Below, in pieces: positions 355 to 30,062 of a stretch of DNA of 64,000 bases. How positions within the stretch are numbered: the first letter of the stretch is position 1; every line of letters begins with the position of its first letter. This DNA comes from Climacium dendroides. Lineage: Eukaryota > Streptophyta > Bryopsida > Hypnales > Climaciaceae. The stretch lies in assembly GCA_950106755.1 (NCBI GenBank), contig OX467083.1, positions 24,299,029 to 24,363,028 on the forward strand, given 5' to 3'. Position numbers and translations under genes: made by a program. The notes beneath the pieces are model-generated. The model made no database searches, was not told where the DNA came from, and was given only the letters and a program-made list of their open reading frames with translations.

Positions 355-364
355 CAGGGTTGTC
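355..364 (+). repeat. hAT terminal inverted repeat, left
   Basis: CAGGGTTGTC matches the reverse complement of 14369-14378 at all ten positions. Beyond this the two ends share only short CGTC/GTCCGG-type words. Confidence 0.9.
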
Positions 365-479
365 CCCATCACGTCGCGTCCGTCCGTCAGGATGTCCGGA
401 CAGACGTCAGGATCCATCCCCGGCGTCCGTCAGGATGAAATCCAAATGACAACTGGCGACAGAGGATGATTCAGACTAT

Positions 480-1165
480 AGAAATGGATGGACGAGCTTC
501 GTCGCCGGGAGCTCTGGACGGCTGCGATGGACGGTCGGATGAACGGTCGATGTGGACGGTTGGGCTGGACGGTCGATCTGGACAGTCTAGTTGGATGGCC
601 GAGATGGACTGTCGACCTGGATGGCCGAGATGGACCGTCAACTTGGATGGTCCATCTGGACCGTCGATCTAGACGGTCTGGCGGAACCGTCGATCTAGAC
701 GGTCTGGCTAGACGGTCGATCTGGACGGCCTGGCTAGACGGTCGATCTGGACGGTCCGTCTGGACGGCCGAGATGGACGGTCGAACTGGACCGTCGATCT
801 AGACGGTCTGGCTGGACGGTCGATTTGGACGGTCGATCTTGACCGTCAATCTAGACGGTCTGGCTAGACGGTCTGGCTAGACGGTCGATTTGGACGGTCG
901 ATCTTGACCGTCAATCTAGACGGTCTGGCTGGACGGTCGATTTGGACGGTCGATCTTGACTGTCGATCTAGACGGTCTGGCTGGACGGTCGATCTGGACG
1001 GTCCGGTTGGACGGCCGAGATGGACGGTCGATCTGGACCGTCGATCTAGACGGTCTAGCTGGACGATCGATTTGGACGGTCGATCTTGACCGTCAATCTA
1101 GACGGTCGATTTGGACGGTCGATCTGGACCGTCGATCTAGACGGTCTGGTTGGACGGCCAAGAAT
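480..1165. repeat. GACGG/CCGTC tandem array A (left subterminal)
   Basis: About 680 bp of degenerate short units built from gacggtcgatctg and gaccgtcgatctaga. They form many inverted GACGG...CCGTC pairs. The apparent ORFs here (repeating DLDG/RSIWTV peptides) are products of the repeat and not genes. Subterminal arrays often bind hAT transposases; that role is inferred here from position and motif sharing with the other three arrays of the element. Confidence 0.85.
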
Positions 1166-2476
1166 TCAATTACAAACAAAATATTATCATTCCTTGATTG
1201 AAATTTGTTGGAATGGACTTAAAATGAGGTTGCGTTGACATGGTGATTTTTTGAAATTTTTATACTCTTTACATCTATGACCTCATTTTTGCAAATTCAA
1301 TTTTGAACTAGGGTCAATGCAAGTTGACCACTTGACACACTTCCACATTTGTAATTTTAGAAAAATGTGTATTCTAAAAACAACAAATCAAACCATTAGA
1401 TAAGACATGAACTAGTCAACTAGATAAAGTATCACCAAAAATTAGGATGACTTTAATCTAAACAAAAACCAAACTGAAATAGGAAGCTGAATTTGTTCAT
1501 CGTTCAAAAAATGGTTAACCCCTACATGCCCAAGGCACCCAAATCTGGTGTTGTTCAAACTTTGAAGTTAAAAAGTTGTTCTTGAATTCTAGTTATAGCA
1601 TCAATAGTCTGTTCTTAAAAATATGTGATAGTGATTTTTTGATTCTAAACTTTGTGCAAGGGTACCTATTGCAATCTTGACTTGTTGTAGTATTGAGAGG
1701 TCTTGGAAATGTGCCTCAAAAACATTGGATCTTGGAGGAAAAATCACATTCAAAATTCATTTAAAATTAAAGAAAATTATGGTATAGATTTTTAAAGGCA
1801 TAAATTGATTGGGGTTATATATATTAGGTCCTCTAATCTCATATTTGTTTGGTCACCAATTTTTTAAATTGGACTTGTGAAAAGAGGATTGTAAGACTTC
1901 ACATCATTTTTTTAGTTTTAGCACCCTCCTGGGCAAACATTATAATCTTTTACTCCATAAGTGATATTGTTTAGGATTTCTTTTCTATGAGGTAACTAAC
2001 ATGCCTAGTTCGAATTTATACAATTACAATTTTTTGAAAATTGATACACCTAATGAAAATGTTGACATGTTGTTGAATTTAGAGCAAATTCTACAAAGCT
2101 CAAAGCAAACTTTGGGCATCTAGGATTCTAAGGATAAGGGATTAGAGTTCGTTATTGAATTTCTAATTACAAAACTTGCTAAATTGATTTTACATTGTTT
2201 GGCAAGAAATAAAAAAATAATAATCCGTGAGGGTTCTACCATCTAAGGATATAAGATTCTTCTACACTAATAGGAAAACGGCCAATGGATTAACCCAAAA
2301 GACAAAGGCAAAGCAACAATACACGAGGAGGCAAGAAAATGATAAATGTACAATGTTTTATAAATCCATCAAAACGTGGTACATTGGTTTAGGCTTTACA
2401 TTGCTCTACTTTGTACAACTTTAGAAATTTAATTCTACGCATCTATCTATTTGTACACAGCGTCATCCAAAACTAT
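1166..2476. other. AT-rich non-coding part of the hAT element with a nested repeat
   Basis: No gene is visible. About 1645-1900 resembles the reverse complement of about 43650-44000, with recognisable shared stretches such as the 'ttgtgcaaggg' and 'cttggaaatg' words. A ttaacccctac terminus-like motif occurs at about 1515. This marks a dispersed repeat inserted into the hAT element. Confidence 0.55.
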
Positions 2477-4681
2477 CTATTCTATTTCTTCAATTACAAT
2501 GCTTCGTGCTATGCTGCCTCTCAAAAATCTTTGCAACTCTTCTCTTGATTGCAAAGTCGTCAAAAGATGATGTGCGTCATAATCGTATCTATTGTGTAAA
2601 TAGGAGAAAATGGCACTCACAAGTGCAGGCTCATGGAAGGTATTGTCTTCAATGTAGTTCATTTGTTCCTCAAAACTCAATTCACCTTCGAATCCGACAG
2701 GCATGCCTTGAGAGTTAAACATTATGCCTTGTGGATGTGGTGCACGCACAAAAATGAAGAGGTCCGGGTCCCAATGTCCACTAGCAATTTGACCAAAATA
2801 TAATCGCCGCCCTGGATCACCATCTCCAATTACCTTCTTAATCACCTCTGTCACCGCGGCATCATTCTCCTAGTGTATCTCCGCAACCGTTCTTGCCGGG
2901 AGGTGTCGATTGTCGTGGTCCCACTTCCAAAGCCAAGTCATGTCCATCCCCCAATGCGCTCTATTCGCGGGTCCCGACAAATTTTCTTCATTGTGCTCGT
3001 AATGTTCAGGCATGTGGGCTTGGAGGCCAAACATTTTGTATAGCCTCGGATGAAATGGAGCCTTGCATTGTGCACATCTTTTTCGGGTGACCATGTGTGG
3101 AATGAGGCACATGGGGTGGTATAAATGGCCACATGTACCAAGATGCCATCCACCCTCGGGGCCAAATGGTTCTTGGCAAAGCATACATGTGGTGCCGTCT
3201 TGTACAAAATCGGGAACCAAAGGCCACACTAGTGGCCTAATCCCATCGCCGTTCGCTGGCTCGTATCGATAGCGCTCCGTGTCGTATTAGAATTCCAAGT
3301 CTGGAGAACTATTCCAATCGATGCTTGCATTCTCGAGCTTCACTGGCAAATCATCAGTGAACATTTCTTCCACTCAAGGCCACGAGGTCAAGCCAAAATA
3401 ACGTTCGCCGCCATCATTGAACTCCGCAGCCACTCTCTTCACTTCACGTTGCATCTGCTCAACCTCGCTTAGTGCTAAGCTGCATGTTAACTTCATGTTG
3501 CACATTTGAAGCAGCATGCGTTCCTTCTGCGGGTTTTGGACCAACCGCATATTTTGAGCACTTAATGCGGTCATGGTCTGCTCCAAGCCAGCTTGAGCTG
3601 TAGTAAGCACCACCACATCTGCCTCAGCTTTGTTGGCGCGAAGTTCCAAAGCCCGCATAGCGTTTGTCAATTCTTCAACGTGGGCTTTAGTACTTCCAAC
3701 TTCTGCTTCAGCTCGCTCCGCACGTGCACGCATAATATCCAACGTGGCACCTCCAACACTTGGAAACAAGGACCGTGGCCGCACCCTAAACTCGTTTGCA
3801 TTGCTAGGGCCTGGTCTGTTTTCGTCTACACCGTATGTAGCACGTTCGACCACCACATCAAGTGGTGGAATTTCGTCCGTACTCAACCGCCTTTCACGTG
3901 CTACGAGGTCGGCCTCGCGTGCGATGAGTCTTGCATTCTCATCCATAAGGGCCTGCACCCTAGCCCTTTGCCCTTCCAACTCTGCAGCATGTTGTCGTAA
4001 TGCGGCTTCCTTTTCTGCTTGCAGTGTTTGGACTAATTGTCGCAAGCGAAGTACTTCATCACCTTCACCTTCCACTCCACCAATCGCATCTTCATTGGGT
4101 AGGTCTTCTCCGGTGCCCATGTCACCCTCTACCTCCATCACCTCCATCCCGGGTTGCTCCACTTGCTCTTCCGGGTTTTCTTGCACATTGGGTACATTGT
4201 CCAATGGCACGGCAGGGTTTGGTGGAATGCTGCGAGGTCTATTTGGTGATTGACCATGACGCATCTTGCCGAGGAAGGTTCTCCAATCCACATCCTTCCC
4301 AAGAAAAACTTCCGCATATGCCATTTGGCACAACGAAAGGGTCCCATCTCTTCTGGATCTCGAACCCCAAATTGCCAATGCCACTTCAATCAATCTCTTC
4401 TTGAAGTGCGGATGTCGGCACTGGTCGAAATTTACAACCCCGCATTTCACATTTACCTCGTACCGGTCAGGTGCCCAATGGCGGTTGATATGGGCCCAAT
4501 CTACGAACTTCCGACACGTCACTCTTGTCCACGGTGAATCTTCATTCATCCACCCCTCGTTTGCCAGAATCTCCGAGGCATTGAGTGTGCCCCAATCTAA
4601 GGTTGCCCTATTCCCCCTCTTCTTTCTATTTGCGGGCTCACCTCCATGTCCTGAACCTCGTGCTGCATCCTCACCGTCCAT
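2477..4681 (-). pseudogene. hAT-borne coiled-coil/RING-finger protein, broken by three in-frame stops
   Basis: One reading frame runs about 735 codons from the ATG at 4681 to a stop at 2477. It is interrupted only by TGA (3374-3376), TAA (3287-3289) and TAG (2870-2872). Upstream codons to 4855 are open but look like a leader. The N-terminal part (about 1-145) is a tryptophan-rich region of unknown family. Residues about 190-430 are heptad-like and rich in Glu, Ala, Arg and Leu, predicting a coiled coil. A C3H2C3 RING lies at about 498-545 (CMLC, TCGHLYHPMC, CAQC). A conserved-looking tail follows. RING proteins with coiled coils are commonly E3 ubiquitin ligases; that role is inferred. The stops could each arise by one C-to-T change. 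The gene diverges from array B just upstream. I do not recognise the full protein. Confidence 0.7.
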
Positions 4682-4944
4682 TTTGGATACCTGTCCAAAA
4701 TTTCCCTGTACCTGTAGTCTGTTTGCGGATACACTGACAATTTGCTTTGCCTTCTGTTGCGTGAAGGCAACTGAAAAGTAACAAAACAAATGCCAAATGT
4801 ATAACACTTCTTCTCGAATTACAATGCAAAGCTTTCTCAAGCAAGGACAAAGCAACTCAAAAGAGGAAGCGATTTCAAATGAGGGGGATAAACATACTTA
4901 TACCTCCGAATTACCGACCCAATTACACCCGGTGATTAGGACAT

Positions 4945-5242
4945 AATCATGTCGTCCAGCTCGAATCCAGCCCGTCCAGGGATGTGGGACGGCCCTGGAA
5001 TGGACGGTCAATCCGTCAACGAAGGTTCGGGACAGGTTTGGAAAGCCGTCCAGAGGTTCGGGTCAGGTTTGGAAAGCCGTCCGAAGGCTTGGGGCGCCGA
5101 AAAGAGGATTGGAAAATCATTACGGCGCCGTCCGCGAGTTCCTTCGACGGCTTGCCCGTCCTTCTGGATGGCTTGCCCGTCCCCTCGACGGCTTGTCCGT
5201 CGAGCTGGACGGCCTGCCCGTCCCCTCGACGGCTTGCCCTTT
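4945..5242. repeat. GACGG/CCGTC array B upstream of the RING gene
   Basis: Repeated units of the form gacggcttgcccgtc, each an inverted GACGG/CCGTC pair with a short spacer, beginning about 260 bp upstream of the coiled-coil/RING start codon. The position fits a promoter element. ORFs through it are repeat-derived. Confidence 0.75.
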
Positions 5243-5249
5243 GTGTGTT

Positions 5250-6060
5250 CATGATTGAAATTTTCTATTGCTACTACCAAATGATGTGAAAAATTCATTC
5301 AATTGAAGCAATTTTGGATCTCTCAACAAAGTTGTTTACAAAGTTTTTGAGATTTACAAGTTTTCTTTTCAATTCTTCAATTTGTTTTGCCATTGTTTGT
5401 AACAATTGAGTCAAATTAGTAATGCATTTTATTATATATTTTATCTTTTACAACATTCACCATTGGATATATTTCATTCATGATTGAATAAATATTTATT
5501 TTATATTTCAATATATTCTTATTTATAAAAAATTTATATAAAGATTTTAATAATTTGGATTTGAAAATTTATTGGAATTTGTGTTCTGCATTTTGTCAAA
5601 TACATTAAAATTCTAATAATACATGTAGATCTTTTACATATTGCCCATTGCATATATTTTATTCATCATTCAATAAATTTCTATTGTACATTTCAATATA
5701 TGCTTATTTATAAACAAAATTATATAAAGATTTTAGTAGTAAATAGAAGGTTTATTGAAACTTTTATTTGAAGGTTTATTGAAATTTGTGTTCTTTATTT
5801 TATCTAATACATAAAAATTCAATAAAATTCAAATGATGAATGTGTAGCATAGCAAGCGCCAACCACTATCATACTACTAAAATCACAAGGTCCTTTGTAA
5901 TACCATAATTTTACACAGTGTGATATTACAAAGGCCCAATACCTTTATAATATCACATTTTAACACCGTATAATAATACAAAATTGCAACAGCCACTCCA
6001 CTTCTATAACATCACATAGTGTTAAAATGTGATATTATAAAGGTACAGGGAATATTATGG
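5250..6060. repeat. AT-rich dispersed repeat, copy 1
   Basis: From 'gattgaaattttctattgct' at about 5251 to about 5900 this resembles the reverse complement of about 41030-41430. Shared landmarks include 'gccattgtttgtaacaattgagtcaaat' split around 5390 and 'gtagcatagcaagc' at about 5845. A segment of about 190 bp is internally duplicated (near 5450-5640 and 5640-5830). The right part holds palindromic pieces around gatattacaaagg and gatattataaagg. No coding capacity is seen. It is probably a non-autonomous repeat nested in the hAT element. Confidence 0.55.
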
Positions 6061-6540
6061 ATGTTAAGGTATTCTTGGCTTCACACTTCATTCAACTTGC
6101 ATGGTTCGATGATTTTGAGAATTAACTAGCGGCTATATGAGGATGTTAGTATTTCCATTTAAAGATTATATATTCTTTAATTATCTACATTCTATTCTGT
6201 GAAACACCATATTGGTTCACTTTTAATGTAATAGGAAATAAGTAAAATATAGATATGAGTTTTAGATTCAAAAGTGTTAGTATCCTAAATTAAACTAAAA
6301 CCATTAGTTAGAAGACTTTTAGTATATAGGACAAGAAACTAGATCAAAATTTCAACCCAAAGGACAAATGTAATATATTACGGTTTTCGGCGAAACATTT
6401 GTTAGAAAACTATATGAAATATTAGAAGACATTCATCTATTTTTGGATTTGGTCTTACTTCAATTTGAAATTATTTGCTAAAATCACATAAAGTTGAGCA
6501 ACATCAAATAGTCTTAAAAGGAAAATAAGAAAGAGCATTT

Positions 6541-6732
6541 AAGGTATAGGTTTAGGATATAGGGTGTGGGGTTTAGGGTATAGGGTACAAAGTATAGCGT
6601 ATAGGGTTTAGGATATAGGGTATAGGGTTTAGGGTTTAGGGTATAGTGTATAGAGTATAGGGTTTAGGATATAGGGTTTAGAGTATAGGGTTTAGGGTAT
6701 AGGGTATGGATTATTAGAGTTTAGGGTTTACT
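6541..6732 (+). repeat. Degenerate telomere-like (TTTAGGG) array
   Basis: About 190 bp of tttaggg, atagggt and ggtttaggatataggg words in one orientation. The plant telomere unit is TTTAGGG. Here it alternates with TATAGGG variants, so this is an interstitial, degenerate array and not a chromosome end. Confidence 0.75.
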
Positions 6733-7617
6733 TGGAAACATAAATCAGAGTATAAGTTTATCTTTCAACATAGATAGGGGAAGTCCTCTTGTTTTGGTGT
6801 ATTGGATCAAATGCAAGAAGTAAGAATGTTTGTAATGAATCAATGATTCTATATTATACATTTTTTTTTCGGCGTTTTTTAAATATCTTTTTTAATGAAC
6901 GATTTTAAAATTAAGTTTACGATATCAGAGTTTAGCTTTTAGAGGGCCATTTTGTCTTTGATTCTGTATATTTGATATGGACTTAGTAAATTAGTGAATG
7001 TTTGTATGTTTGAATTGAGTACATGCAGGTTGAATATTCAAGAAATACTAAATTGTGAAATTGTTAGGTGCACTTACATATAGGGAAGCTTGGGATCAAA
7101 TTACAATAATCCCAAAGGTGAAATTACTCTATATGGAATTCTAAAATTCATTGCATTTAAATTTGATCCATATAAATTATTTAAGTTGTGAGGGGATGCC
7201 TTGATCGTTGTAATACAAACATTGGCCACGACTTTCTTATTATGGGTGCAAATGAAATGACCCAATTTTTTATGTGAACATCAAAAATATTCCAGGTCTT
7301 AAATTAAGATGTTTTGAATATGGCCTTTTGTAATTTTGGTCTATGTTTTTCCCTTTATTTATGTGCAACTAAATAAAATTCCATTTTATTCGAGCCTAAA
7401 CCCTAAACCCTTCATCTACATTTGAATGTCATTATTGGTATTTATTTGTACATCCATAGGAACAAACGTGAACATTTAATTGGCACTCCAAAACTTCCCG
7501 CCACTATAGACAATGTAGTAGTTCAAACATGGACACCTGTCCTGACAAGTCCCAGGGTGGAAAACAAGATAATTGACGGCGCAATTAATTCCATGCTTCC
7601 AACACTTTGGGCGACAG
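6733..7617. other. Non-coding interval in the hAT element
   Basis: AT-rich sequence with no open frame of note and no recognisable motif. It separates the telomere-like array from array C. Confidence 0.4.
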
Positions 7618-8030
7618 CTTGTTTCGACGGTCTTTTCGTCCCCTGGACGCCTGTGGATGGGGGACGGAGTCCGTCCTCTTGATGGCATGACCGTCGATGT
7701 GGACGACGCGACCGTCCACTCGACGGCATGTCCGTCCTATCGACGGCCTGACCGTCGATGTGGATGGCATGACCGTCCTCTCGACGGCCTGTCCGTCGAT
7801 CTGGACGACGCGACCGTCCACTCGACGGCATGTCCGTCCTGTCGACGGCCTGACCGTCGATGTGGACGGCATGACCGTCCTCTCGACGGCCTGTCCGTCA
7901 ATCTGGACGACGTGACTGTCCACTCGACGGCATGTCCGTCCTATCGACGGCCTGTCCGTCCTCTCGACGGCATGTCCGTCCTGTGGACGGCATGCCTGTC
8001 CAGCTCGACGGTCATGCCGTTGAGCTGAAA
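7618..8030. repeat. GACGG/CCGTC array C upstream of the kinase-like gene
   Basis: Units of about 16 and 32 bp such as cgacggcctgtccgtc and cgacggcatgaccgtcc alternate, forming serial inverted GACGG/CCGTC pairs. The array ends about 200 bp before the ATG at 8229, and 'gggtatatag' at about 8031 could be a TATA-like site. Long ORFs on both strands here are repeat artefacts. Confidence 0.8.
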
Positions 8031-8228
8031 TGGGTATATAGAAGGGGGTTGGATTCATTTCTGCCACAGTCTCTCTTGCTCTGACGGTGCTCGCTTGTCT
8101 TGGATTGGTTGAAGTCCTTGCTTGGGAGCGCGGGTGCTTGTGAGAGGCTGGTTTGAGGAATAAGGGGGCGGTTTTTCACTTTGTGGAATCCGAATTCCTA
8201 ATTCCTCTGGATTATCACTACTATCCCA

Positions 8229-9871
8229 ATGGCTGGTCGCGATTTCTCGAAGAGGAAGGTTGATGCGTGGTTTTCAGGAGTTGGAGATGGAACAAGTTTG
8301 GACCCGTCTGCGGAATCAGAAAGCCAGATTTCAGAGGCTGTAGCTGCAGAAGGAGCCATAGCAATTGTGGGTGCGGGAGAGTCTTCGAAGTCGAAGAAAA
8401 AACAACGGAAAAGGCACAAGGCCACAAATCCAGAGAAGTGGCCAAGCAAGGTTGCAACGCGCAAATTGCATGAAGTGGCGTTGGTTTTTTTTGAGCAGTA
8501 TTCAATTCCACAGTTGAACACAACATATATGTCGCGCGGATTATAGGGGGTGGATGCCATCAAACAAAAGTTCCACCACATGTTTTGGACAACAATGAGC
8601 GAGGATGAGTGGTTGGAAGACCGCACAAAGGAATCCTTCAATCATTGGCTGGAGTCACAAGTGCAAACGTGCATCTTCAACCTTGCCCAAGTTGCGGAAA
8701 AAATCAAAGGCTTTCAAAAGAGTGTAGTTCCCAAACAACAAGCATTGAATTTGTTGCACAAGAAGGTGTATTGGTGGCATGAAGCAATGCGGGGACTATC
8801 TTCAAACAACATCCGTTCTGCTCCGTGGTTTCAGCGAAGTCAAAACTTGGCCTTTGGTCAACAAGCTGCGGGTGGAGTGGTTTTTCTTGAGAGAGGAGTT
8901 GTGGTGGTTCCGTTGTCTAGCCATAACAAACAAGGGGGCACGGGAGGGTGCGCAAGGTTTGTCTTCAGAATTCGAACCATATTCCCGAGAATATGGAATT
9001 AGCTGGGAAGTCGGCCGTGCGCGTTGATGACTTGAAGAAGTCAAGGGAGAAGTTGTCCATTGAGGCATTGGTTTGTCCATGCGATCATCCAGGGGTCATC
9101 AAATTCTTTGCCATAAATGACATGACCATGGAGTGTTATTCTCAATGGTGGAATGGAGGTACTCTGGGCGCCATGTTTACCCTTGATAAGAAGACTCGAG
9201 ATCCAGACGAAATTGGGGAGGTGGCTTACCATGCAACTCCACAAACAATGCAAGCTATGAAACGACTTATGGCATACAGACGGAAGCGCACCGAACTTGC
9301 GTGGGCGTTGCTCTGCATTGTGGATGCAGTGCAACAATGTTTAGTACTGCACAACGACATCACACCGGAGAACATCATGCTTCACTTTCCGAATGACGAT
9401 GGAAGAACCGTGTGGATTGGTCTATGTGATTGGGGAATGGGTAGCCGCATCAATGAAGAAACCCCTTCTCTTTACCAATTCAGTTGTGCAAATAAGTTGC
9501 AGGCAACTCGCAAGCAACGTTGGTGGGTGGCTCCGGAGTTGATGTACATGGTTGGAGAGACAGGAACTTCAACATCTCCTAGTCGCATGGGTAAGCCACC
9601 ATCTGTTAGTATACACACGGATGGATACTCCATAGGGAGATTGGCTATGAAGGTATGAAAAAAGGATCGCGAAAATACAGAGATGATTTCTGACCATACG
9701 GCATTTGGTACATTTCAAGCGACACTGGTTGAATTGTGCAAGGTGAAGCCACTACAACGACGCTCAGTGACATTTGCCGTGCAACGTCTAAGTGGTGCTC
9801 CAACGTTTTGGACACCACCCGTGGATTGCTACCGCGAGGCCCGGAAAGAACAAGACCTTCAAGATGACTAA
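8229..9871 (+). pseudogene. hAT-borne protein-kinase-like gene, broken
   Basis: The ATG at 8229 opens a frame with a Lys/Arg-rich basic stretch and an unrecognised domain containing EDEWLEDRTKESFNHWLE. There is a TAG at 8544-8546. The frame then appears to shift near 8780-8820 and again near 9000. The third frame encodes a kinase-like domain: an EAL...HPGVIKFF N-lobe segment, catalytic loop LHNDITPENIML (HRD-like, Asp and Asn kept, usual Lys replaced by Thr), DWG in place of DFG, and WWVAPEL as the APE motif. A TGA at 9656-9658 interrupts it, and the same frame continues to TGACTAA-type ends near 9871. The position expected for the VAIK lysine reads AVRV, so activity is doubtful. Possible introns could explain one of the frame changes. 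It lies downstream of array C. The kinase call is fairly firm; substrate and role are unknown. Confidence 0.68.
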
Positions 9872-10016
9872 GCGTGCAATGAGGATTAGATGATAGTGTA
9901 TTACCATAGATTTGCAAAATTAATGTTTTCTTAGCAAATGTGGTTATTATAGTATCGGCTTGAGGACATCCATAGCAATGTAGCACACTTTGTGCCTTCA
10001 ATCCATTTTGTACTCG

Positions 10017-10055
<39 letters not shown>

Positions 10056-10471
10056 GTATTTTATCTAAACATTGAGTGTATCTTTTTTGTATCACACCTC
10101 AAACAAGTAAACAACTACAACAAACACCTTGAAGTCAAATTTGACTATCAACCCAAATTTATCTTTTTATTCAAAATCAATAGAATATTTTAATATTTTT
10201 GGCTAGTATAAGAATCCATTTTCTAGTTATGCCTTTTTTAATTTAATGAAAAAATCTATTTATTTTGATTTTAGAAAAGCTAAACATGGAAATCAAATCA
10301 TATTAGTTACAATATGTATCAAAATAAATTGAAACCCTTACCATAAATGAAGGATAGAATGAAAGGAACAAAAGTACTTCATATTAATGCCGATTTCAAT
10401 ATGTAAGGTATTGAGCCTCAAAATCCATTGCATTTGAAAACATGAAGATCCTATTGTCTTTTGAAAAACAT
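9872..10471. other. Non-coding spacer between convergent hAT genes, with (TA)n
   Basis: Contains a TA dinucleotide run at about 10020-10052 and AT-rich sequence. It separates the 3' ends of the kinase-like gene and the transposase gene, so termination signals probably lie here. None is distinct. Confidence 0.5.
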
Positions 10472-13400
10472 TCAACGTCTTCCATGCCTAAGAACGCGCC
10501 TAGAAGTATTGGCCGTTGCTTCTGCTACAATTGGTTCATTACCACCACTTTCTACTCGTAGACCTTGTCGAGGCACTGTCCCTAGATAATCACTATCTCT
10601 TGGAACCTCACCATCTTCGCCTATACTAGCACCGATGGACTCGCCATCATTACTGGATGTTGCACTACCACTTTCGCTAGAGGCATTTGAATTTCGATTT
10701 CGTTGTGGTTGAATTATAGAAGACAATGTTCGAAGAGGCCGTTGGCCCGTTGCGTCCATAATGCCATCTATACTAGGCCCTCCTATGTGAACTTCTCTTG
10801 AAAATGGTTGGGATGCCGCTTCTTCTCTCGTTAGTCTTCTACGTGTTCTAGGACTCACACGTTGACTAGTAGTACCTTCATGTCGTGGATGCTTCCCTCG
10901 ATTATTGGCGCGTGTAGATGGGTGCAATGAAGTCGGGTTTGTAGTCGTACGTTGGGACACCATACTAGCCAATCGTGTACCTATCGTTGAAGTAGGTCCA
11001 TGTAGACAAACTCCGGAATTAGATGGCCTGGCTGAACTTTGGATTTGTAGATTCTCTAGTATTGGTGTTTGACGTTGTAGTGCAACATCCCCTTGACTTG
11101 GAGGGGGCATATCTAATTCTCCACCATGAGGGGGCCCTTCTCCGTAGGTGGTCCTTGTAGGCAATGATTGTGGTACTACTACGTCTTGTTCACGTCCTCT
11201 TTCCATGTCAACACTATCTCTTTCCATTGGGGCATCAACTTGTACATCGATAGAATCTGGATTTAGTGGTCTCGGTGCCACAATGTCTTCATTCGTATTT
11301 CCCCCGCTTGGCCCAACATTCCACCTTTGTGGCATTTGTGGTGGACTTCCATCATATCCCTCGTGGTCATTGTCGTTATTATCCCCCTCTTCAAAGTCAA
11401 ATACAGATGCATCAATTAGAGGACGCACTCCTCTCGCCCCCTGAAATCCATGGAATGGTGAGTCATCGCCATCATTGGAACTATCATCTGAATCGTCATC
11501 ATTAGGGTTAGAGCGAACCGAACCCCGGTCTAGACCATCCGATTCATCGGGGTCATAGAATCTTCTGACATCATGTTCTCGGTGTACCACCTTGTCGGAT
11601 TTGCTGCAGCCCTTTCTCTAAGAGTTTTGGAATTGGTGTAAATGTAAACCAATTCCTGAGCATGCTCTGATGTCAGTCTATTGCGTGATTTGTTGTGGAC
11701 AAACGAATACATGCTCCAATTGCGTTCACACGACGATGCAGAGCACACTTGGACGAGGATCTTTTTTGCAATTGGTGCAAGTGTACGAGCACTGGCTCTG
11801 AGAAGGTCCCACCATTCGTGAGGCTGCAAATTTAAAGTGTTTACATCGGGAAGTCCACCAAAAATGCCCCAACGATCTCAAAATGCTTGGTACTCAGACA
11901 AAGCTGAAGCAAATGCTTGATCTGGAACAGCCAATTTGCGCAATACTCTCAATATGCCTTCTCTTGCCTCGTCATCATCCATTAGCAAAACTTCGTCAAG
12001 TAAAAAAGGATTCAATAGAGCCCCAGCATAATGCAAATCTGTCCTTAGCATGCCCCAACGCTTGTAGAAATCATCGATGGCAGGAATTGCATACCGTGGT
12101 TCCAAAGAAAATGGTGGATCCCGTAGAGATAAAACATGCTTTTCCACCTTTTTCATCACAAGCCATGCCTTGTCTAAGCATGGGTGCTTGCCATCAAACT
12201 CTCTAAGAGCAACCAATACGGGCTCCACTATGTGCACAAAGTTTAAACATCTCCTCCAAAATTCATCCGTTCGTACATACCGTCGCACATCGTTGGCTTT
12301 TCTTTTCTTTTCCTCTGATGTCAATCTCTCTGTGTACTCATTCCATTGTGGATTGTGGACTGTTGATTCTATCGCTACCCTCACATGTACCAAACGCTCA
12401 ATCATAAGAAACATGGTTGCAAAGCGTGTTTCAACGGGATTCTTCAAAATGAGATTAGGAGAATGTCGTCGAAAAATTGCAAGTGTCATGTGATGTGTGC
12501 GAATGTATTTCACAATTGACTTGGCTTTCTTGACCATACTTTTTATCCAATCTTGTTTGCCCCAATCTTCAAGTAGAAGGTCAAGTGCATGTGCTGAACA
12601 CCCTTGAAAATATAAGTGTGGAAATCGACGAAGTAACAAAGCACTAACAGCCAACATGTTCCCTGCATTGTCTGTACAAACTTGTACCACATTTTGCGCC
12701 CCTACCCTGTCAATATAATCACCCATGCAATTAGCCACATAAGTAGCATCTTTGCGTTCGCCTGTTGTGTCTATGGATCCAAGAAACACCTCTCCACTTG
12801 TACATACCAACATGACATTCATCAATGGTCGATGGTTGACATTGTCCCATCCATCAGAGCATATTGTAACGCCATACTTGTGGATTGGTGCCTTTGTCTT
12901 CTCCGCTACCATTGCCGCCACTTCGTCTTTTGTAGATTTCATGAGGTTTGTACGAAGTGCATGGTACGCTGGAGGTTTGTAGCCAACTCTCGATTCTGAT
13001 GTTGATTTCACGGCATCCAAAAAAGCCGGATGCCTCGCTACATTGAAAGGTATATTGGCTTCATAGAAGAACTTAGCCCACTTTTTGTCTAGTACTTGCT
13101 TGTTTGATGTATTCATTCCTTCTTGCACAGACAATTGCCTCATTGATCGACTGTGGGCCAAACTTGGGTTGGGTGCGTCTGATGATCGTACTTGAGAGCT
13201 TTGTCCCCTAGTGTTTTCTCCTCCATCGTTTCCTGAGATTGAGGCATCAGGTTCTTGTTCACCACGTACAACACTCGGAAGTACCATTGATGGAGATGTC
13301 ACTTCCACATCCTGTCCACTCCTGTCCGAAGTGCTTGCAGGTATATCCCCTCCGCAATTAAAAAACATTAACTTCACAGCTGCACTAACTTTAGTGCAGG

Positions 13401-13557
13401 CTCTCACTCTAGGGAGCTTGTCTATTCGTCGGTACCCCAAATGGAAAAGCAACCGATCTTTTCGATAGCTTAGCAAAGCTTCGCAAAACTTGCAAGCAAC
13501 TTTTCCATCCACTCGTAGTGTGTACCAAGGTTCCCAATGTGATCTTCCTCCACCCAT
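10472..13557 (-). pseudogene. hAT transposase (BED, DUF659, hAT C-terminal dimerisation), broken
   Basis: The ATG at 13557 opens a 559-codon frame. Residues about 1-45 hold a BED-like zinc finger (CKFCEALLSY then HLGYR). A DUF659/RNase H-like core follows with CSDGWDN and CTDNAGN, which carry the expected catalytic aspartates. A TGA at 11878-11880 interrupts the protein, but the same frame continues to 11530 through the dimerisation motif (SSCERNWS...NRLTSEHAQELVYIY). Between about 11540 and 11590 the frame shifts into a tail of about 350 residues, open to 10472. The tail is rich in Asp, Ser, Asn and Arg and predicted disordered. Array D lies upstream. A normal hAT transposase is about 650-750 residues, so the long tail is unusual. 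In this state it cannot make a full protein unless the stop is read through. Confidence 0.88.
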
Positions 13558-13864
13558 TGCTCTTATCTATTCTTTCCTACTTGCCCCTGCACAAGAAAGA
13601 AGATTAGTATTCTGTATGAAATGCGATGTAGAAGCAATACTTGTTGCTCTCACAACAAGTGCCACCACAACACATTCTTCTTGGATTTTGCTTTACCGCA
13701 ATGGTTGTACTCCAACCAAGTCATGAAAACCAAAATCAGCAAGGAAAAGTAATCTTGAATAGGCGTAAGTCCTTAATATACACCTTTCAGGGCGATCCTA
13801 AAACCCTAAAACCCAGCTAGACGGACTGACGCAAGCGGCTGATGTGTCGACAGGTGGACCTTAA
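13558..13864. promoter_or_regulatory. Leader and promoter interval of the hAT transposase gene
   Basis: About 300 bp between the transposase ATG (minus strand) and array D. No clear TATA box is evident. It probably contains the transcription start and perhaps a leader intron, inferred from position only. Confidence 0.35.
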
Positions 13865-14235
13865 GCCCAACGGAAACGGCCTCCCGTCCTGGGGACGGCT
13901 TCCCGTCCTAGGGACGGCTTCTCATCCTGGGGACGGCTTCCCATCCTGAGGACGGCTTCTCGTCCTGGGGACAGCTTCCCGTCTTGGGGACGGCTTCCCG
14001 TCTTGGGGACGGCTTCCCGTCTTGGGGACGGCTTCCCGTCTTGGGGACGGCTTCCCGTCCTGGGGACAGCTTCCCGTCTTGGGGACAACTTCCCGTCCTG
14101 GGGACAGCTTCCCGTCCTGGGGACAGCTTCCCGTCCTGGGGACGGCTTCCCGTCCTGGGGACGGCTTCTTGTCCTGGGGACGGCCTGCCGTCCGGGGGAC
14201 GGCTTACTGTTCGAGAGGCCGTCCAGGAGTCCGTC
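13865..14235. repeat. GACGG/CCGTC array D (right subterminal, upstream of transposase)
   Basis: Near-perfect tandem array of a 19-bp unit, ggacggcttcccgtcctgg, about 18 copies with variants (cttgggg, cctgggg). It is both subterminal to the right TIR and upstream of the minus-strand transposase gene, so it may serve transposase binding and promoter control at once. The long ORFs on both strands are repeat artefacts. Confidence 0.9.
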
Positions 14236-14368
14236 CACAGCTAGACAGACTTCATCCATGCTGAAACGGTTACGTCAGTATTGGTGACGGATCCTGACGA
14301 CGTCACGACACGTCAAGACGGACGTGTCATGACATCCGGACGTGAAAAGCCCACGTCACGTCCGGATA

Positions 14369-14378
14369 GACAACCCTG
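14369..14378 (-). repeat. hAT terminal inverted repeat, right
   Basis: GACAACCCTG is the exact reverse complement of the left end at 355-364. Confidence 0.9.
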
Positions 14379-14386
14379 AACGAGAC
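14379..14386. repeat. 8-bp target-site duplication, right copy (hAT)
   Basis: AACGAGAC, identical to 347-354. Confidence 0.93.
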
Positions 14387-23831: not shown

Positions 23832-25823
23832 ATGTTTCAAAATATTAGTGAGCATGAGTTGAAAAAGGCATTGCAAAAGAACCAAAGAAAAGAAAGGGCT
23901 AATAAACGGTCTAATCATAGAATTATATCCTCTTATGCCAACCCTGTATTTAGTCCAACACCAGCAAGACCACCTTCTCCCCAAGATTCTAAATTGAACA
24001 ATTTAGACATAGAACAAACTTTAAGTTCGCCTTTAGGAATTTATGCAAGAAGACAAGTAGATAACAATTTAGGTGAAGGATCAGCTGAGATTATAAACCC
24101 CATTGTAGCAAACATTGTTGATAACCTTTTAGACCAAGAAGTTAGGAATTTTCAAGAAATTCCTTATTCAACATTTGAACGAGGACAGACTTCAAATTCT
24201 CCTACGTTACACTCGACCCCTATCGAATATTTGTTTTCAAGACCTAAAAATCTTACTTTAGACCCTCAATTCACTAGTCCAGTGGCAGAATATTTACAAG
24301 AATCTGGAGGTGAAGAGAGTCCCAGTGTACGAGAACGCTTGAAAAAGCTCTTGTACCATGTGAACGAAAACTCTGATCCTATCACTTCTGAGTCAGAACA
24401 TTCTGATACACCTTCTCATTTTGAAATTTCTTCGGGTCAATTTTTACCACCATTTGAGGAAGAAAATAGTAATCAAAGTGGTTTAAGTACATCAGAAGGG
24501 TGTTCTAATTCATCCTCATTAAATTTGACTTCATCCACTGATAATTCTAGTGATAGTTCACCATCTAGTGAGAACCTTTCTGACATAAACATGGCACAAC
24601 CAAGACCTTTGAGTTTGGTTCCCTTGCCACAATACTCGGGCCATCTAGGATCTGATCCTGATTATCATGTCAATAGATTTTTGATGACATGTCAAGCAAA
24701 CCTCATACCTAAGGCCAATTATTTGATAACCTTTCCTGCCACCTTAACGGGTGCTGCTCAGGAATGGCATCAAACTCATGGACCCTATGCGACATGGGAA
24801 GCATTGCGAGATGCCTTCTTGACCAGATTCCGTCCATTAGCCTTTATAGAAAATATTCAAGACCGTTTACGGAATTTGAGAATGGGACCTAGGGAAACAG
24901 TAGATTCCTATTATGGAAGAATGGAATATCTACTGAGACGTTGGCGTAATCATGGTATGCCAGATGCTTACCTTACTAGCTTGTTTATAGGAGGATTACA
25001 CCCTATTGAGTTCAAAATAGCCATGAGAGAAAAGAACCCTGCAAATTTAGCAGAAGCCTTGCAAAATGCTAAAAGATATGAAGAAGCTAGGATTGGTGAA
25101 GCAAATTTGTCTTTGGCAGATCTTACACCTTATTCTACAACATCTCTAGAACCTTCTTATGTTCAAAATCCTATGTATCCAGTAGTTCAAGAACCAAATT
25201 ATATAAAACCAGAAATACATATACCAAAACAAAAATTAGAGTCCAAAACTGGATTAGAAAATCAATTGAATAAATTGATTGAAGGAATGGCTGACTTAAG
25301 AGTCCAAGTGACCAATGCGCCAAATAAGAGAAATAAGCCTACCAATGTGAGAACCAATGTTTGGTGTTCTAATTGTAAAGGGCATGGGCATTTGTCTTCA
25401 GAATGTTCATCACCTTTTATAGAAAATATGGTACGAAGCCCTATTTGTGGTTTTTGTGGTGGTAAACATTTTACAGACAAATGTTGGAATTTAAAAGTTG
25501 TTAGACAGGATATGGCAGCAGTTAAGCAAGTCATGCAAGTTGAAAACAATAGGCCATGGGTTAATAAGTCTAACTTTAGCAAACGACCATTCACTAGACC
25601 AAATGAAGAACCTCCATATAATCCTAATCCTAACAATCGACAAAATTGGAGTAACAATAATAATTACAATAACAACCAACTTTCACCTCCATCTAGCTCA
25701 TCTAGACCAGAAGGGTCGGTTATCTGTTATAGATGTGGTGAACCAGGCCACTATTCTCGAGACTGTCCTAATCCTAAAAAACAAGTTGGTTATGTTCCTT
25801 GGTGTGGGCATTGTAGACAATGA
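23832..25823 (+). CDS. gag: gag polyprotein of the Ty3/gypsy element
   Basis: An intact 663-codon frame from ATG 23832. Residues about 1-250 are Ser/Asn/Glu-rich. A retrotransposon gag (capsid) domain follows, with FPATLTGAAQEWHQTHG and ETVDSYYGRMEYLLRRW, at about residues 270-430. Several CCHC-type knuckles lie at the C-terminus: CSNCKGHGHLSSEC, a degenerate CGFCGGKHFTDKC, and CYRCGEPGHYSRDC. The frame ends with TGA at 25821-25823 in the middle of a further knuckle (CGHCRQ, stop, GHVAEKC) and continues in the same frame into pol. It forms the virus-like particle and packages RNA. Confidence 0.9.
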   Translation: MFQNISEHELKKALQKNQRKERANKRSNHRIISSYANPVFSPTPARPPSPQDSKLNNLDIEQTLSSPLGIYARRQVDNNLGEGSAEIINPIVANIVDNLLDQEVRNFQEIPYSTFERGQTSNSPTLHSTPIEYLFSRPKNLTLDPQFTSPVAEYLQESGGEESPSVRERLKKLLYHVNENSDPITSESEHSDTPSHFEISSGQFLPPFEEENSNQSGLSTSEGCSNSSSLNLTSSTDNSSDSSPSSENLSDINMAQPRPLSLVPLPQYSGHLGSDPDYHVNRFLMTCQANLIPKANYLITFPATLTGAAQEWHQTHGPYATWEALRDAFLTRFRPLAFIENIQDRLRNLRMGPRETVDSYYGRMEYLLRRWRNHGMPDAYLTSLFIGGLHPIEFKIAMREKNPANLAEALQNAKRYEEARIGEANLSLADLTPYSTTSLEPSYVQNPMYPVVQEPNYIKPEIHIPKQKLESKTGLENQLNKLIEGMADLRVQVTNAPNKRNKPTNVRTNVWCSNCKGHGHLSSECSSPFIENMVRSPICGFCGGKHFTDKCWNLKVVRQDMAAVKQVMQVENNRPWVNKSNFSKRPFTRPNEEPPYNPNPNNRQNWSNNNNYNNNQLSPPSSSSRPEGSVICYRCGEPGHYSRDCPNPKKQVGYVPWCGHCRQ

Positions 25824-28800
25824 GGTCATGTTGCAGAAAAGTGTAATGCCCCACCTAGGAACTTTCCTCCCTCTGAAAGAGATTATCCCAAGAAAAACCA
25901 AGTCCAATTTAAGGATCAAGATAACTCTAGATCCTCAAATCATGTTTCCCACATTCTACATAGGAATGAACCATTGCCTGAAAAGGTTTATGTAACTACT
26001 AGGGGAATGAAAACAAAACAAGATATTAGAAATAATGAATCCCAAGACTATTCAGGAAAGGAAATAGTTCGACCATATTGGTCAAAAGAAGAAATATCTT
26101 CTGAACCAGATGAAGACAAAGAGATTGCTAATCACATACCAGAATCTGAACAGATAACATTTCCAGAAAAAGAAATTACTTTAAAAGAAAGACAAGAAAG
26201 AGCCCTTAAGACAACTCTTAACCAAGAAAACCAAAACGAACCTCAAAAAATAATTCTACCACCAAAGGTATTACCTACAATCTCTTCAACTTTACCTAGT
26301 TTCTACCAACCTCCTTTTAAACGAAATAAGCCCAGAAGTCATGAAACTAACTTCATCAAACGAAAAGCAATAAGTACAATGAAATTAGAAATGGGTATGC
26401 AACCCTACAATGTGTTAGACAACTTAGACAGAATACAACCCCTCATTTCTATGAAACAACTCTTGGCGATTTCACCCAAATGTAGGAGTGACCTTAGTAC
26501 TTCCCTAATAAGAAAAAGGGTTAAGTCAAACCAAATCCATGAGATCTCGGTAGATCCCGGGGCCCCAATGGTCGAAGTAATGATTGATGGATCATTAATC
26601 CATGGTGTCCAAATCGATAGTGGATCTAGTGTTAATCTCATGAACTTCGAAACCATGGAAGAGCTAGGATTAACTACCATGACACCAACACCTATCATCC
26701 TAAGAATGGCAGACCAAAGCAGAGTCAAACCTCTTGGAATGTTGAATCAAATCACCACCACTATAGGAGGAATTGATTATAAGATAGACTACATAGTTTT
26801 CAAATTGTTAAACTCTATATCTTCTTATCCTATCCTATTAGGTAGACCTTGGCTGTTTTCAGCCAAAGCAAAAGATGATTGGGGTAAGGGAACCTTGACT
26901 ATAGGAAAAGGCAAAAACCAAATTGTCTTTCCCCTTTATCCAACTCCTTATCATGGAGAAACCCAACAAGAGGATTCTAATCAAACTTCTGCACTTTCTT
27001 CTGATATGGAGGAAGAGAGTGATGATGAACAACCAACACAAAAAGTAAATAAAGAATTGCCTTATAAATGTGTTGGGTTGGGAGAATATTTTACTCCCAT
27101 GAATAATATCGATGACTCGGATGATGCCATCCTGGCATGGGAAAATTCTGAGGTCTTAAATGTTAGTGTTGAAGAAAGTTCAGAGCTTGAACCTAAACAA
27201 CCGTCAGATACTGAAGAAATAGAGAATTTATTTGCTCATAAAGACCCAACACCTTTGCAAAAGGAATCTTTGAAAACTCCTTTACAACAAATGAATTTAG
27301 GGACAAAGGAAGATCCTAAGCCTATTAGGGTCTATTCTAAAATGACGAAGGTAAAGTTTAAGTATTGGCATAACTTTTTCAAAAGACATAGAAAGGCTTT
27401 TGCTTGGAGTTATGCCGATCTTAAAGGAGTTCCTCCTGAAATATGTCAACACAATATTGTGTTAGAAGAAAACGCAAAACCTGTTAGACAAAGACAATAC
27501 CGAATGAATCCAAAGTATTCATTAATAGTAAAAGAGGAAATTGATAAGCTGTTAGAATGCGGATTCATATTTCCCGTACCTTACAGTGAATGGGTTTCAC
27601 CTATTGTAATAGTACCCAAAAAGAATGGCAAGTTGAGAATTTGCCAAGACTACCGTAAGTTAAATAGTATCACTAAGAAAGATCACTTCCCTTTACCATT
27701 TACCGATACCCTTTTAGATGGTGTCGTAGGACACGAATGCTATTCTTTTCTAGATGGATTTTTTGGTTATAACCAAATCCAAATTGCAGAAATGTATAGG
27801 CTATTAACAGCCTTTACTACTGATTGGGGAATATTTGCCCATACAGTAATGCCTTTTGGATTATGTAATGCCTCAGCTACTTTTCAAAGACTAATGACAA
27901 TGGCCTTTCAAGAGTATCTCAGAAAATTCATTGAAATATTTCTAGACGACTTTTGTGTATTTAGCACAAAAGCCAATCATGCGGGATGCTTAGAAAAGTG
28001 TTTTGAACAATGTGAGAAGTTTGGCATTTCGATCAACGCAGCCAAATCCCAATTTGCCGTGCCTTATGGCAAAATTGTGGGACACATTGTTTCTAACCAG
28101 GGCATTGCTACAGATCCGGATAAGGTAGCAATTATTAGTGAACTACTCCAACCTAACACCATAACGGAAGTTAGAGCCTTTTGGGGACATGTTGGATACT
28201 ATAGAAGATATATCCACAAGTATGCCAACATTGCCTTACCTTTGACTGCATTAACTAAAAAGACTGATAGTACACATGTATGGACCAAGGCTTGTACAGA
28301 AGCTTTTAACACCCTAAAACAAAAACTTATAATAGCTCCTGTCCTAATTCCACCAGATTGGAATAAAGACTTTGAAGTTTATGTCGACGCTTCCAATGTT
28401 GCAATTGGAAGTGTGTTAAGTCAAAAGAATGAAAAAGGTCATGACAAACCTATTTATTTTGCAAGCCGCCAATTGGCCGCTGCAGAAAAGAATTATACTG
28501 TAACAGAACGAGAAGCGTTAGGGATGATATTCTCAGTCCAAAAGTTCCGACACTATTTGCTGGGATACAAATTTGTTTTCCACGTAGATCATGATGCCTT
28601 GAAATATATGATAAACAAACCCCAACTTAGTGGACGGATCGCTAGATGGGTGTTATTACTCCAGGAGTTCAATTTTACGATCCAAGTAAGACCTGGAAAA
28701 AGTCATATGAATGCAGACCATCTATCTCGAATTAACCCAGAAGTTGGACTAGAACCCATTGACGACAGTTTCCCAGATGCCAACTTATTCCAAGTAGATG

Positions 28801-30062
28801 TCATTCCAACAGAATATGCAGATATTATCTATTACCTTTCCACTGGACAAATTCCTGCGGAATATACAAAAAAACAAAAGCGACGACTAGTTTATAGAGC
28901 AATACCTTATACACTAATAGAAAATGTTCTCTACAAAAAGGGTAGAGATGAATTATTAAGACATTGTATTAATCCAAGTGAAGTACCTTCAATCCTAGAA
29001 GGATGCCACAGCGATGTCTGTGGAGGGCACTTTGCTGGGTTAATCACTGCCCAAAAGGCGCTACAATCTGGCTATTGGTGGCCAACTATGTTTGCAGACG
29101 CTGCTCAATATGCAAAGAAGTGTGACCCTTGCCAAAGAACAGGCAAACCTACACCTTCTACTGCTATGCCCCTAACTCCTATCCTTGTCCAAATACCTTT
29201 TGAGAAATGGGGTATTGACTTTGTTGGCCCAATTAAACCCCCAAGTCGAAACGGTAGGAAACAATATATTCTAGTCGCCACAGACTATGTCACTAAATGG
29301 GCAGAAGCTTCTGCCACTAAAACAGACGATGCCAAAACCGTTGCCAAATTCCTATATGAAAACATCATTACACGATTTGGCTGTCCAAAAGAGCTAGTGA
29401 GTGATAGAGGTACTCACTTTCTGAATGACACCATTGCTCAACTAACTGAAAAATATATGATTAAACACAGAAAAACCAGTCCTTATCACCCAAGAGCAAA
29501 TGGTCAGACAGAAAAGACTAACGGAATACTTTGCAAAATCATTAACAAAACAGTCCAAGGCTCTAATACAGATTGGGACGCACGAGTCCTAGATGCCTTA
29601 TGGGCTTATAGGTGTGCGTATAAGGTAACTACCAAATGTACACCTTTCCAACTAGTTTATGGCCAAGAGGCCATTTTGCCAATTGAATTAGAAATTCAAT
29701 CCTTACGGATTGCAATTGAGCATAAATTAGGAGAAGAAGACTCCCTAAAAGAACGTTATTCAATGTTGGAGAAATTGGATGAGACTAGGCGACAGGCCTA
29801 CTTAAACATGCTAGTAATTCAGAACCGTAGGAAAAGTTATTACGATAGCAAACTCAAACCCAAAGAATTACATCCTAATGACTTAGTCCTTTTATTTGAC
29901 AGTAGATTCCCAAAATTTCCAGGCAAATTCAAGATGCGCTGGTTTGGACCATACAAAATCTTGAATGTATACCCCAATGGATCTGTAGAATTGCAAGATT
30001 TTGCAGGGGTAATACATTCTACACGATACAATGGCTATCGCCTAAAACCTTACATAACTTGA
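25824..30062 (+). CDS. pol: pol polyprotein (protease, RT, RNase H, integrase)
   Basis: Same frame as gag, open from 25824 to 30062. The first usable ATG-type start in my reading is not essential if the TGA is read through. Positions counted from 25974: aspartic protease IDSGSS at about 213; reverse transcriptase with SFLDGFFGYNQI and FLDD at about 656; RNase H starting YVDASNVAIGSVLSQ at about 803; integrase HHCC finger (H, H, CDPCQ) at about 1010-1055; and catalytic DDE at GIDFVGP, SDRGTHF and NGQTEK, with 35 residues between the last Asp and Glu. The C-terminus ends RYNGYRLKPY, as in Athila/Tat, with no chromodomain. No internal stop or frameshift is seen, so this copy may be competent. 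Confidence 0.93.
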   Translation, partial: GHVAEKCNAPPRNFPPSERDYPKKNQVQFKDQDNSRSSNHVSHILHRNEPLPEKVYVTTRGMKTKQDIRNNESQDYSGKEIVRPYWSKEEISSEPDEDKEIANHIPESEQITFPEKEITLKERQERALKTTLNQENQNEPQKIILPPKVLPTISSTLPSFYQPPFKRNKPRSHETNFIKRKAISTMKLEMGMQPYNVLDNLDRIQPLISMKQLLAISPKCRSDLSTSLIRKRVKSNQIHEISVDPGAPMVEVMIDGSLIHGVQIDSGSSVNLMNFETMEELGLTTMTPTPIILRMADQSRVKPLGMLNQITTTIGGIDYKIDYIVFKLLNSISSYPILLGRPWLFSAKAKDDWGKGTLTIGKGKNQIVFPLYPTPYHGETQQEDSNQTSALSSDMEEESDDEQPTQKVNKELPYKCVGLGEYFTPMNNIDDSDDAILAWENSEVLNVSVEESSELEPKQPSDTEEIENLFAHKDPTPLQKESLKTPLQQMNLGTKEDPKPIRVYSKMTKVKFKYWHNFFKRHRKAFAWSYADLKGVPPEICQHNIVLEENAKPVRQRQYRMNPKYSLIVKEEIDKLLECGFIFPVPYSEWVSPIVIVPKKNGKLRICQDYRKLNSITKKDHFPLPFTDTLLDGVVGHECYSFLDGFFGYNQIQIAEMYRLLTAFTTDWGIFAHTVMPFGLCNASATFQRLMTMAFQEYLRKFIEIFLDDFCVFSTKANHAGCLEKCFEQCEKFGISINAAKSQFAVPYGKIVGHIVSNQGIATDPDKVAIISELLQPNTITEVRAFWGHVGYYRRYIHKYANIALPLTALTKKTDSTHVWTKACTEAFNTLKQKLIIAPVLIPPDWNKDFEVYVDASNVAIGSVLSQKNEKGHDKPIYFASRQLAAAEKNYTVTEREALGMIFSVQKFRHYLLGYKFVFHVDHDALKYMINKPQLSGRIARWVLLLQEFNFTIQVRPGKSHMNADHLSRINPEVGLEPIDDSFPDANLFQVDVIPTEYADIIYYLSTGQIPAEYTKKQKRRLVYRAIPYTLIENVLYKKGRDELLRHCINPSEVPSILEGCHSDVCGGHFAGLITAQKALQSGYWWPTMFADAAQYAKKCDPCQRTGKPTPSTAMPLTPILVQIPFEKWGIDFVGPIKPPSRNGRKQYILVATDYVTKWAEASATKTDDAKTVAKFLYENIITRFGCPKELVSDRGTHFLNDTIAQLTEKYMIKHRKTSPYHPRANGQTEKTNGILCKIINKTVQGSNTDWDARVLDALWAYRCAYKVTTKCTPFQLVYGQEAILPIELEIQSLRIAIEHKLGEEDSLKERYSMLEKLDETRRQAYLNMLVIQNRRKSYYDSKLKPKELHPNDLVLLFDSRFPKFPGKFKMRWFGPYKILNVYPNGSVELQDFAGVIHSTRYNGYRLKPYIT

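Follow-up and report, generated by a model that had tools for sequence, protein, structure and literature searches.

A transposon of the hAT superfamily occupies positions 355–14378 of the window, as the whole 64,000-nucleotide stretch of Climacium dendroides DNA analyzed here will be called, and it is a dead copy of a family that carries three genes, for a transposase, a RING/coiled-coil protein, and a protein kinase. These genes move as a unit, have been under selection, and lie behind shared arrays of a short motif, and the same set recurs in a second, distant family; the probability of this reading is put at roughly 0.87. The genome analyzed is a 412.6-Mb assembly of 123 contigs, and a LEAFY-like gene in it reads KMRDYVH...ERGENVGAWCQACY. 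Asp and Cys at those positions are said to have been described by Sayou et al. in 2014 as the moss type of LEAFY, and by this criterion the host would be a moss.

Both ends of the element, which is approximately 14 kb long, can be read directly. The 10-bp terminal inverted repeats (TIRs), CAGGGTTGTC at 355–364 on the plus strand and GACAACCCTG at 14369–14378 on the minus strand, are enclosed by identical copies of an 8-bp target-site duplication (TSD), AACGAGAC, at 347–354 and 14379–14386, just as a preliminary description of this DNA had stated. Short TIRs of the CAGGG type are characteristic of the hAT superfamily, and both ends of the window element are of this type. When the flanks are joined with one duplication removed, one open frame runs from the start of the window to about 0.9 kb past the junction. 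The preliminary description had placed the insertion inside a frame of a Mutator-like element (MULE) that rejoins in phase; the open frame across the junction agrees with this, but the assignment to a MULE was not confirmed, as a Pfam scan of the right-flank open reading frame (ORF) named no family.

The transposase gene (10472–13557, minus strand) comprises approximately 1,027 codons in other copies, several of which retain open frames of approximately 1,030 amino acids, and is interrupted in the window by one stop and one frame change. The window copy shows the combination by which hAT transposases are recognized, DUF659 (PF04937, E = 1.6e-39) together with the C-terminal dimerization domain Dimer_Tnp_hAT (PF05699, E = 3.5e-10), the latter in the portion past the stop. 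The translation contains an Asp in SDGW, an Asp in CTDN, and a Glu in SCERNW, which are the candidate DDE residues. The dimerization domain is followed by an acidic, Ser-rich tail of approximately 400 residues, which is also present in the relatives P0016 and P0018. Public contigs gave 67 matches to the transposase in all, named plants included; the named plants match the transposase only, with 26–36% identity across the matched parts.

The RING gene (2477–4681, minus strand) is a single frame of 734 codons plus a stop and is broken in the window by in-frame stops at codons 436, 465, and 604. Three relatives are known as proteins from public contigs (P0011–P0013), and the eight C3H2C3 zinc ligands are invariant in all three. 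A profile of these relatives matches solved RING-H2 domains, the best being the RING of RNF24 (E = 2e-5). The C3H2C3 ligands are those of RING-type E3 ligases, and the protein may transfer ubiquitin. The kinase gene (8229–9871, plus strand) is broken in the window by stops and a frame change, matches PF00069 with 34.9 bits against a cut-off of 31.7, and has 10 relatives from public contigs (P0001–P0010). Across the nine that were aligned, AGK, Glu, HN, Asn, DWG, and APE are invariant down to 33% identity (9/9), and the catalytic Asp is present in eight. The profile match and the catalytic residues together place the protein in PF00069, and kinase activity is predicted. At E ≤ 0.001, Pfam scans of the two extra genes named no families besides RING-type and kinase ones, and scans of a virus collection for relatives of the kinase and the RING protein yielded 41 and 57 pattern matches, respectively, none of which was confirmed. 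All three genes that the preliminary description had located inside the element are broken in the window copy, which it had not stated. The longest contig is 6,480 bp for both the kinase P0004 and the transposase P0018, and these two are probably on one contig.

Ten further young copies were fetched from the genome, each with its own, different, and perfect 8-bp duplication, which makes 11 of 11 young copies with distinct perfect duplications of the length expected of hAT elements once the window copy is included. Both TIRs are present with at most one mismatch each in nine of the ten; in the tenth, the left one is exact and the right one has two mismatches. Eight of these copies measure 13.4–14.4 kb, one 17.7 kb, and one 9.5 kb, and all are collinear with the window save for deletions, insertions, and array length, with large blocks that are 92.7–98.2% identical and in some cases span the inner arrays. 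Long, unbroken, and intron-free frames for single genes occur in several copies. A diverged old copy on contig C1 (47.2 Mb) has the RING, kinase, and transposase genes in the same order and orientation, with 73–83% nucleotide identity in long blocks; the stretch fetched excludes its right end, and its ends were not found. Seven more stretches with diverged pieces of the genes were fetched as well. Copies without the RING and kinase genes were what the preliminary description had named as evidence against its proposal, and partial copies do exist: the 9.5-kb copy is without the transposase and kinase end, a 7.1-kb old copy on contig C34 (duplication TGCATAAT) has no kinase gene but retains the transposase gene and the C-terminal portion of the RING gene, and one other young copy has lost part of the RING gene (window 3160–3603). 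However, both the 9.5-kb and the 7.1-kb copies look like internal deletions of the three-gene form.

Linkage of the three genes was assessed across the genome among the best-scoring candidates of each search (40 of 1,636 for the left end, 79 of 701 for the kinase, 85 of 946 for the RING gene, and 77 of 800 for the transposase), and all counts are thus lower bounds: after merging of fragments, there are at least 76 kinase, 77 RING, 76 transposase, and 40 left-end loci. Counting only partners no more than 15 kb away and in the expected order and orientation, the 76 scored kinase loci have the RING gene upstream in 70 cases, the transposase gene downstream in 71, both in 66, and neither in one, while all four controls with the wrong strand or the wrong side gave 0. 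The 40 scored left ends are followed by the RING gene in 40 cases (within 15 kb), by the kinase gene in 39 (22 kb), and by the transposase gene in 39 (30 kb). Conversely, 7 of the 77 scored RING loci and 5 of the 76 scored transposase loci are without the kinase gene. As support, the preliminary description had asked for further copies that share the ends, differ in their 8-bp duplications, and hold the three genes together, and this is what the 11 of 11 young copies with distinct duplications and the 66 of 76 kinase loci in the same layout show. Two inverted pairs of elements of this family, approximately 20–30 kb apart and with near-equal search scores, lie at C2:12950711-12979477 and C34:9748253-9778488 and were perhaps duplicated together.

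The shared arrays consist of the word GACGG or its complement CCGTC and were located with Tandem Repeats Finder, word counts, and the sequence itself. The left subterminal region (355–1160) holds an array with a 13-bp period at 528–1146; a second array lies upstream of the RING gene (5023–5239, minus strand); a third lies upstream of the kinase gene (7671–8020, plus strand) and is followed by TATATA at approximately 8035; and a fourth, with a 19-bp period (13876–14205, minus strand), lies upstream of the transposase gene and is at the same time the right subterminal region. Four blocks, at both ends and 5′ of each gene, contain 121 of the 126 words of the element: 45 in 806 bp at the left end, 15 in 579 bp 5′ of the RING gene, 31 in 688 bp 5′ of the kinase gene, and 30 in 821 bp 5′ of the transposase gene at the right end. 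The three noncoding spacers (4,188 bp in total) hold none and the three coding regions five, and the remaining 49,614 bp of the window hold 16. The preliminary description was therefore right in assigning each gene an upstream GACGG array of its own, with the right-end array serving the transposase gene. The fetched copies have array blocks at the corresponding places, save for deleted or unscanned parts. Of the old copies, D shows blocks in the left, RING, and kinase positions, though only weakly in the last (five exact words in 600 bp), and E shows them at both ends, so that each has them wherever its sequence was covered and not lost to deletion.

Selection was examined by comparing column-majority coding sequences of the young copies with old copies. 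The ratio of nonsynonymous to synonymous substitution rates (dN/dS) is 0.29, 0.31, 0.29, 0.31, 0.32, and 0.30 in six comparisons of the RING gene, 0.32 and 0.27 in two of the kinase gene, and 0.38, 0.47, 0.33, and 0.28 in four of the transposase gene, with upper 95% bootstrap limits of 0.35–0.60. These 12 comparisons are non-independent, with one young-side sequence per gene and old copies that are related to one another. In all 12, the true frame has the lowest ratio of the six. A single antisense frame comes close (0.34–0.56; for the kinase gene, 0.34 vs. 0.32 in the true frame), as would be expected if its codons share the free positions. Since the old copies have decayed too, the ratios overstate dN/dS of active elements. 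Within the transposase, the core (0.29–0.33) is more constrained than the acidic tail (0.41–0.68), where constraint is weaker but visible. By these estimates, the RING and kinase genes are constrained about as much as the transposase gene, and given their ratios of 0.27–0.32 between old and young copies, the extra genes have been kept by selection. The synonymous divergence (dS) from old copies is higher in the RING gene (2477–4681; 0.55–0.61) than in the transposase gene (10472–13557; 0.32–0.40); exchange between subfamilies is possible.

A genome search with the distant kinase P0010 revealed a second kinase group, after 40 of the 83 matches had been set aside as loci of the window's family (family 1). 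At one such family-2 locus, C4:4578600-4598599, the kinase is 27% identical to P0001 and 34% identical to P0010 and has AGK, HND, DWG, and APE. The same locus, which is decayed, has a divergently oriented RING homolog (29–37% identity to P0011–P0013) in two pieces approximately 4.4 kb apart, with one zinc-ligand position that is not Cys, and the N-terminus of a hAT transposase (30% identity to that of the window, E = 2e-13). Arrays of another motif, AGGGCGYGGAC, lie 5′ of the transposase gene, between the divergent RING and kinase genes, and at the right, and the one between the RING and kinase genes has TATA-like boxes on both sides. Overall, the proteins of the second family are 27–37% identical to their family-1 relatives. 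Genome matches of the transposase and RING pieces of this locus were set against 43 family-2 kinase loci: the RING gene was found at 31, the transposase gene at 28, and both in the expected layout at 28, and three of the four controls gave 0, the exception being one locus with a wrong-strand transposase. Family 2 had at first looked like a repeat with a kinase gene alone, a reading given up once the RING and transposase genes came to light beside it. From the transposase side, 66 of 86 family-2 loci adjoin the RING gene (against 4 in the wrong-strand and 0 in the wrong-side control). In these counts, matches were assigned to families by identity, by eye, and 111 of 151 transposase and 115 of 159 RING matches were entered, those left out being short fragments, weak, of family 1, or unlisted. 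In a third group, the RING gene occurs with the transposase gene at 10 of 26 RING loci (controls 0), one of which also has a kinase gene. The head-to-head RING–kinase pair is constant, while the transposase gene lies on the RING side in family 2 and on the kinase side in family 1. The region C39:4399933-4581134 contains five inverted pairs of family-2 RING matches approximately 44.6 kb apart and four family-2 transposase matches at the same spacing, and looks like a tandem amplification that includes family-2 transposon genes.

Several observations weigh against this picture of a conserved three-gene unit. Complete sets are not universal: 10 of the 76 scored family-1 kinase loci and 15 of the 43 family-2 kinase loci are without at least one partner. 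Twelve of the latter have neither partner within 15 kb, two of them beside RING genes of the third group, and the others could be degenerate copies, members of further lineages, or kinase genes outside any element. In the one family-2 locus scanned, which was fetched without its left part, neither ends nor duplications could be identified. The young burst is without sign of selection: shared and single-copy variants do not differ in their nonsynonymous share (p = 0.93, 0.34, and 0.31), most variants occur in single copies, and the copies of the present burst seem to decay neutrally. As for the proteins, the zf-RING_2 match (26.2 bits) is 1.1 bits below the Pfam cut-off of 27.3, the kinase domain is less constrained (0.30–0.38) than the kinase N-terminus (0.24–0.25), and the relative P0003 is without the catalytic Asp. 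The element kinase also has Thr at the position of Lys in HRDLKPEN, which is Lys in most kinases. Two predicted structure models, with mean predicted local distance difference test (pLDDT) scores of 53 and 40, are too poor for confirming folds. Searches of solved structures gave no match at 0.01 with the kinase fragment, four weak matches only with P0001 (best E = 0.025), and no match at 0.001 with the kinase profile. Finally, array binding by an element protein, co-expression, and the targets of the kinase and the RING protein are inferred, as is the self-regulation or host manipulation proposed in the preliminary description, whereas gene content, mobility as a unit, linkage, selection, and array placement are shown.

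How the two extra genes came to be in the element can be explained in other ways. Gene capture by plant transposons is well known (PMC13317346), and fragments of host RING and kinase genes might have been picked up by chance and amplified with the element, a view with which the broken genes of the window copy agree. It is nevertheless hardly credible, given the purifying selection in both genes, their long intron-free open frames in several copies, and the gene set kept in the second, distant family. Because of the purifying selection between subfamilies and the second family with the same set, the two genes are regarded as parts of the element rather than an accidental capture, as the preliminary description had argued. 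Very improbable, too, is a nested composite, in which the RING and kinase genes would derive from a different transposon that inserted into a hAT element and has been carried along since. The position of the transposase gene on the other side of the pair in family 2 implies at least one rearrangement of the pair relative to the transposase, and a TIR/TSD scan of one family-2 locus returned two weak pairs, one of which encloses the RING–kinase part and leaves the transposase out. However, such pairs are no commoner than expected by chance (mean 0.5 in 40 shuffles, with two or more in 3 of 40, while four other stretches of the window, each 20 kb long, gave 0, 6, 4, and 3), and both were rejected as real ends. 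The linkage of the transposase gene with the pair at 28 of 43 family-2 kinase loci, and the recurrence of the motif upstream of the transposase gene in the arrays of the pair, in family 1 as in family 2, also speak against a nested origin.

For binding of the arrays, better-known elements offer parallels. The subterminal AAACGG repeats of Ac bind the Ac transposase (PMC3260210), and VANC proteins bind motifs tandemly arrayed in noncoding parts of their transposons (PMC5735166). In the moss element, the arrays would be bound by an element-encoded protein, most likely the transposase through its BED-like N-terminus or possibly the RING protein through its N-terminal part; binding of AAACGG by the transposase of Ac makes the transposase the first candidate for a GACGG binder. 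Such binding would link transposition with expression of the whole gene set. By phosphorylating and ubiquitinating proteins assembled there, the kinase and the RING protein would most likely control expression or silencing at the arrays. Our best guess, a tentative one, is that the two enzymes keep the arrays of the element expressed against host silencing, as a post-translational counterpart of VANC in VANDAL elements. The next guess, open to somewhat more doubt, is that they control the amount or activity of the transposase: the kinase would phosphorylate its acidic, Ser-rich tail, the RING protein would ubiquitinate it, and the pair would limit or time transposition. The length of the tail, its presence in relatives, and its visible constraint fit this idea, as does the same kind of array upstream of all three genes, by which they may be made together, but the tail evolves fast, and a family with dozens of copies was not tightly limited. 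An unlikely alternative is host manipulation elsewhere, in which the kinase and RING protein would act on cell-cycle, repair, or defense proteins of the host to the benefit of transposition, with no special role for the arrays. Both enzymes are of trans-acting types, and in most of the aligned kinases a stretch rich in Lys and Arg close to the N-terminus resembles a nuclear signal by eye; however, the arrays upstream of genes in old copies and, with another motif, at the family-2 locus point to control that is specific to the element.

Among the closest known systems, Ac/Ds of maize, also a hAT, shares the 8-bp duplications, short TIRs (11 bp in Ac, 10 bp here), and an ACGG core in its subterminal repeats, which are AAACGG as against GACGG here, but Ac is 4.6 kb long with one transcript for a transposase of 807 amino acids (PMC3260210). 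The moss element, in contrast, is approximately 14 kb long and has an acidic-tailed transposase of approximately 1,027 amino acids as well as the RING and kinase genes, and each of its genes has an upstream array. VANDAL21/Hiun of Arabidopsis is likewise a DNA transposon with extra genes (vanB and vanC) and short motifs in noncoding tandem arrays that differ between related families (PMC5735166, PMC10398659). Family-specific tandem noncoding motifs of this sort are found here too, GACGG in family 1 and AGGGCGYGGAC at one family-2 locus. VANDALs are, however, described as MULEs without TIRs, whereas the moss element is a hAT with TIRs and falls outside the VANDAL/VANC group; those descriptions do not present VANC as a kinase or RING protein, a distinction drawn from descriptions and Pfam rather than from VANC sequence, and anti-silencing is only proposed for the moss element. 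A second gene besides the transposase, as in the moss element, is also found in other multi-ORF DNA transposons, such as mutB of Mutyl and vanB/vanC of Hiun (PMC6446971). The word kinase is absent from the main text of that source, which in the part available names no RING gene or multi-gene hAT, RING not having been a search term. No hAT element with conserved kinase or RING genes appeared among the best-ranked literature matches, which covered no bioRxiv preprints and few subscription journals. That DNA transposons can carry extra genes is already known, and kinase and RING genes in a hAT are apparently new. MuDR and CACTA/Spm are further multi-ORF DNA transposons.

Elsewhere in the window, a Ty3/Gypsy-type retroelement lies at 23832–30062, with a frame of 663 amino acids that has zinc-knuckle-like motifs by eye and a second of 1,412 amino acids with reverse transcriptase, RNase H, and integrase domains; the two are in the same frame, with one stop codon between them just before 25824. 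A coiled-coil-like open frame of 643 amino acids (30360–32291) directly follows the Gypsy pol and is possibly an extra ORF of that element. An aquaporin-type gene (MIP, E = 2.9e-19) is found at 45301–46140 on the minus strand.

Class II transposons are usually taken to need a transposase alone, and here two enzymes of cell regulation have been kept as element genes in a land plant across a depth of approximately 30% protein identity. It is conceivable, if short of probable, that an old clade of moss hAT elements has its own signaling circuit, unrelated to VANC, in which a kinase and a RING protein, co-expressed with the transposase from promoters made up of the motif of the element ends, would act at the arrays in family-specific anti-silencing or in setting the dose. 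If true, we know of no earlier case of a cut-and-paste transposon that encodes post-translational control of its own. Such kinases and RING proteins in moss gene sets should be viewed with caution, as they may be transposon genes. Mosses are easy to transform, and these elements offer a tractable case for how a transposon may control its own expression or escape from silencing.

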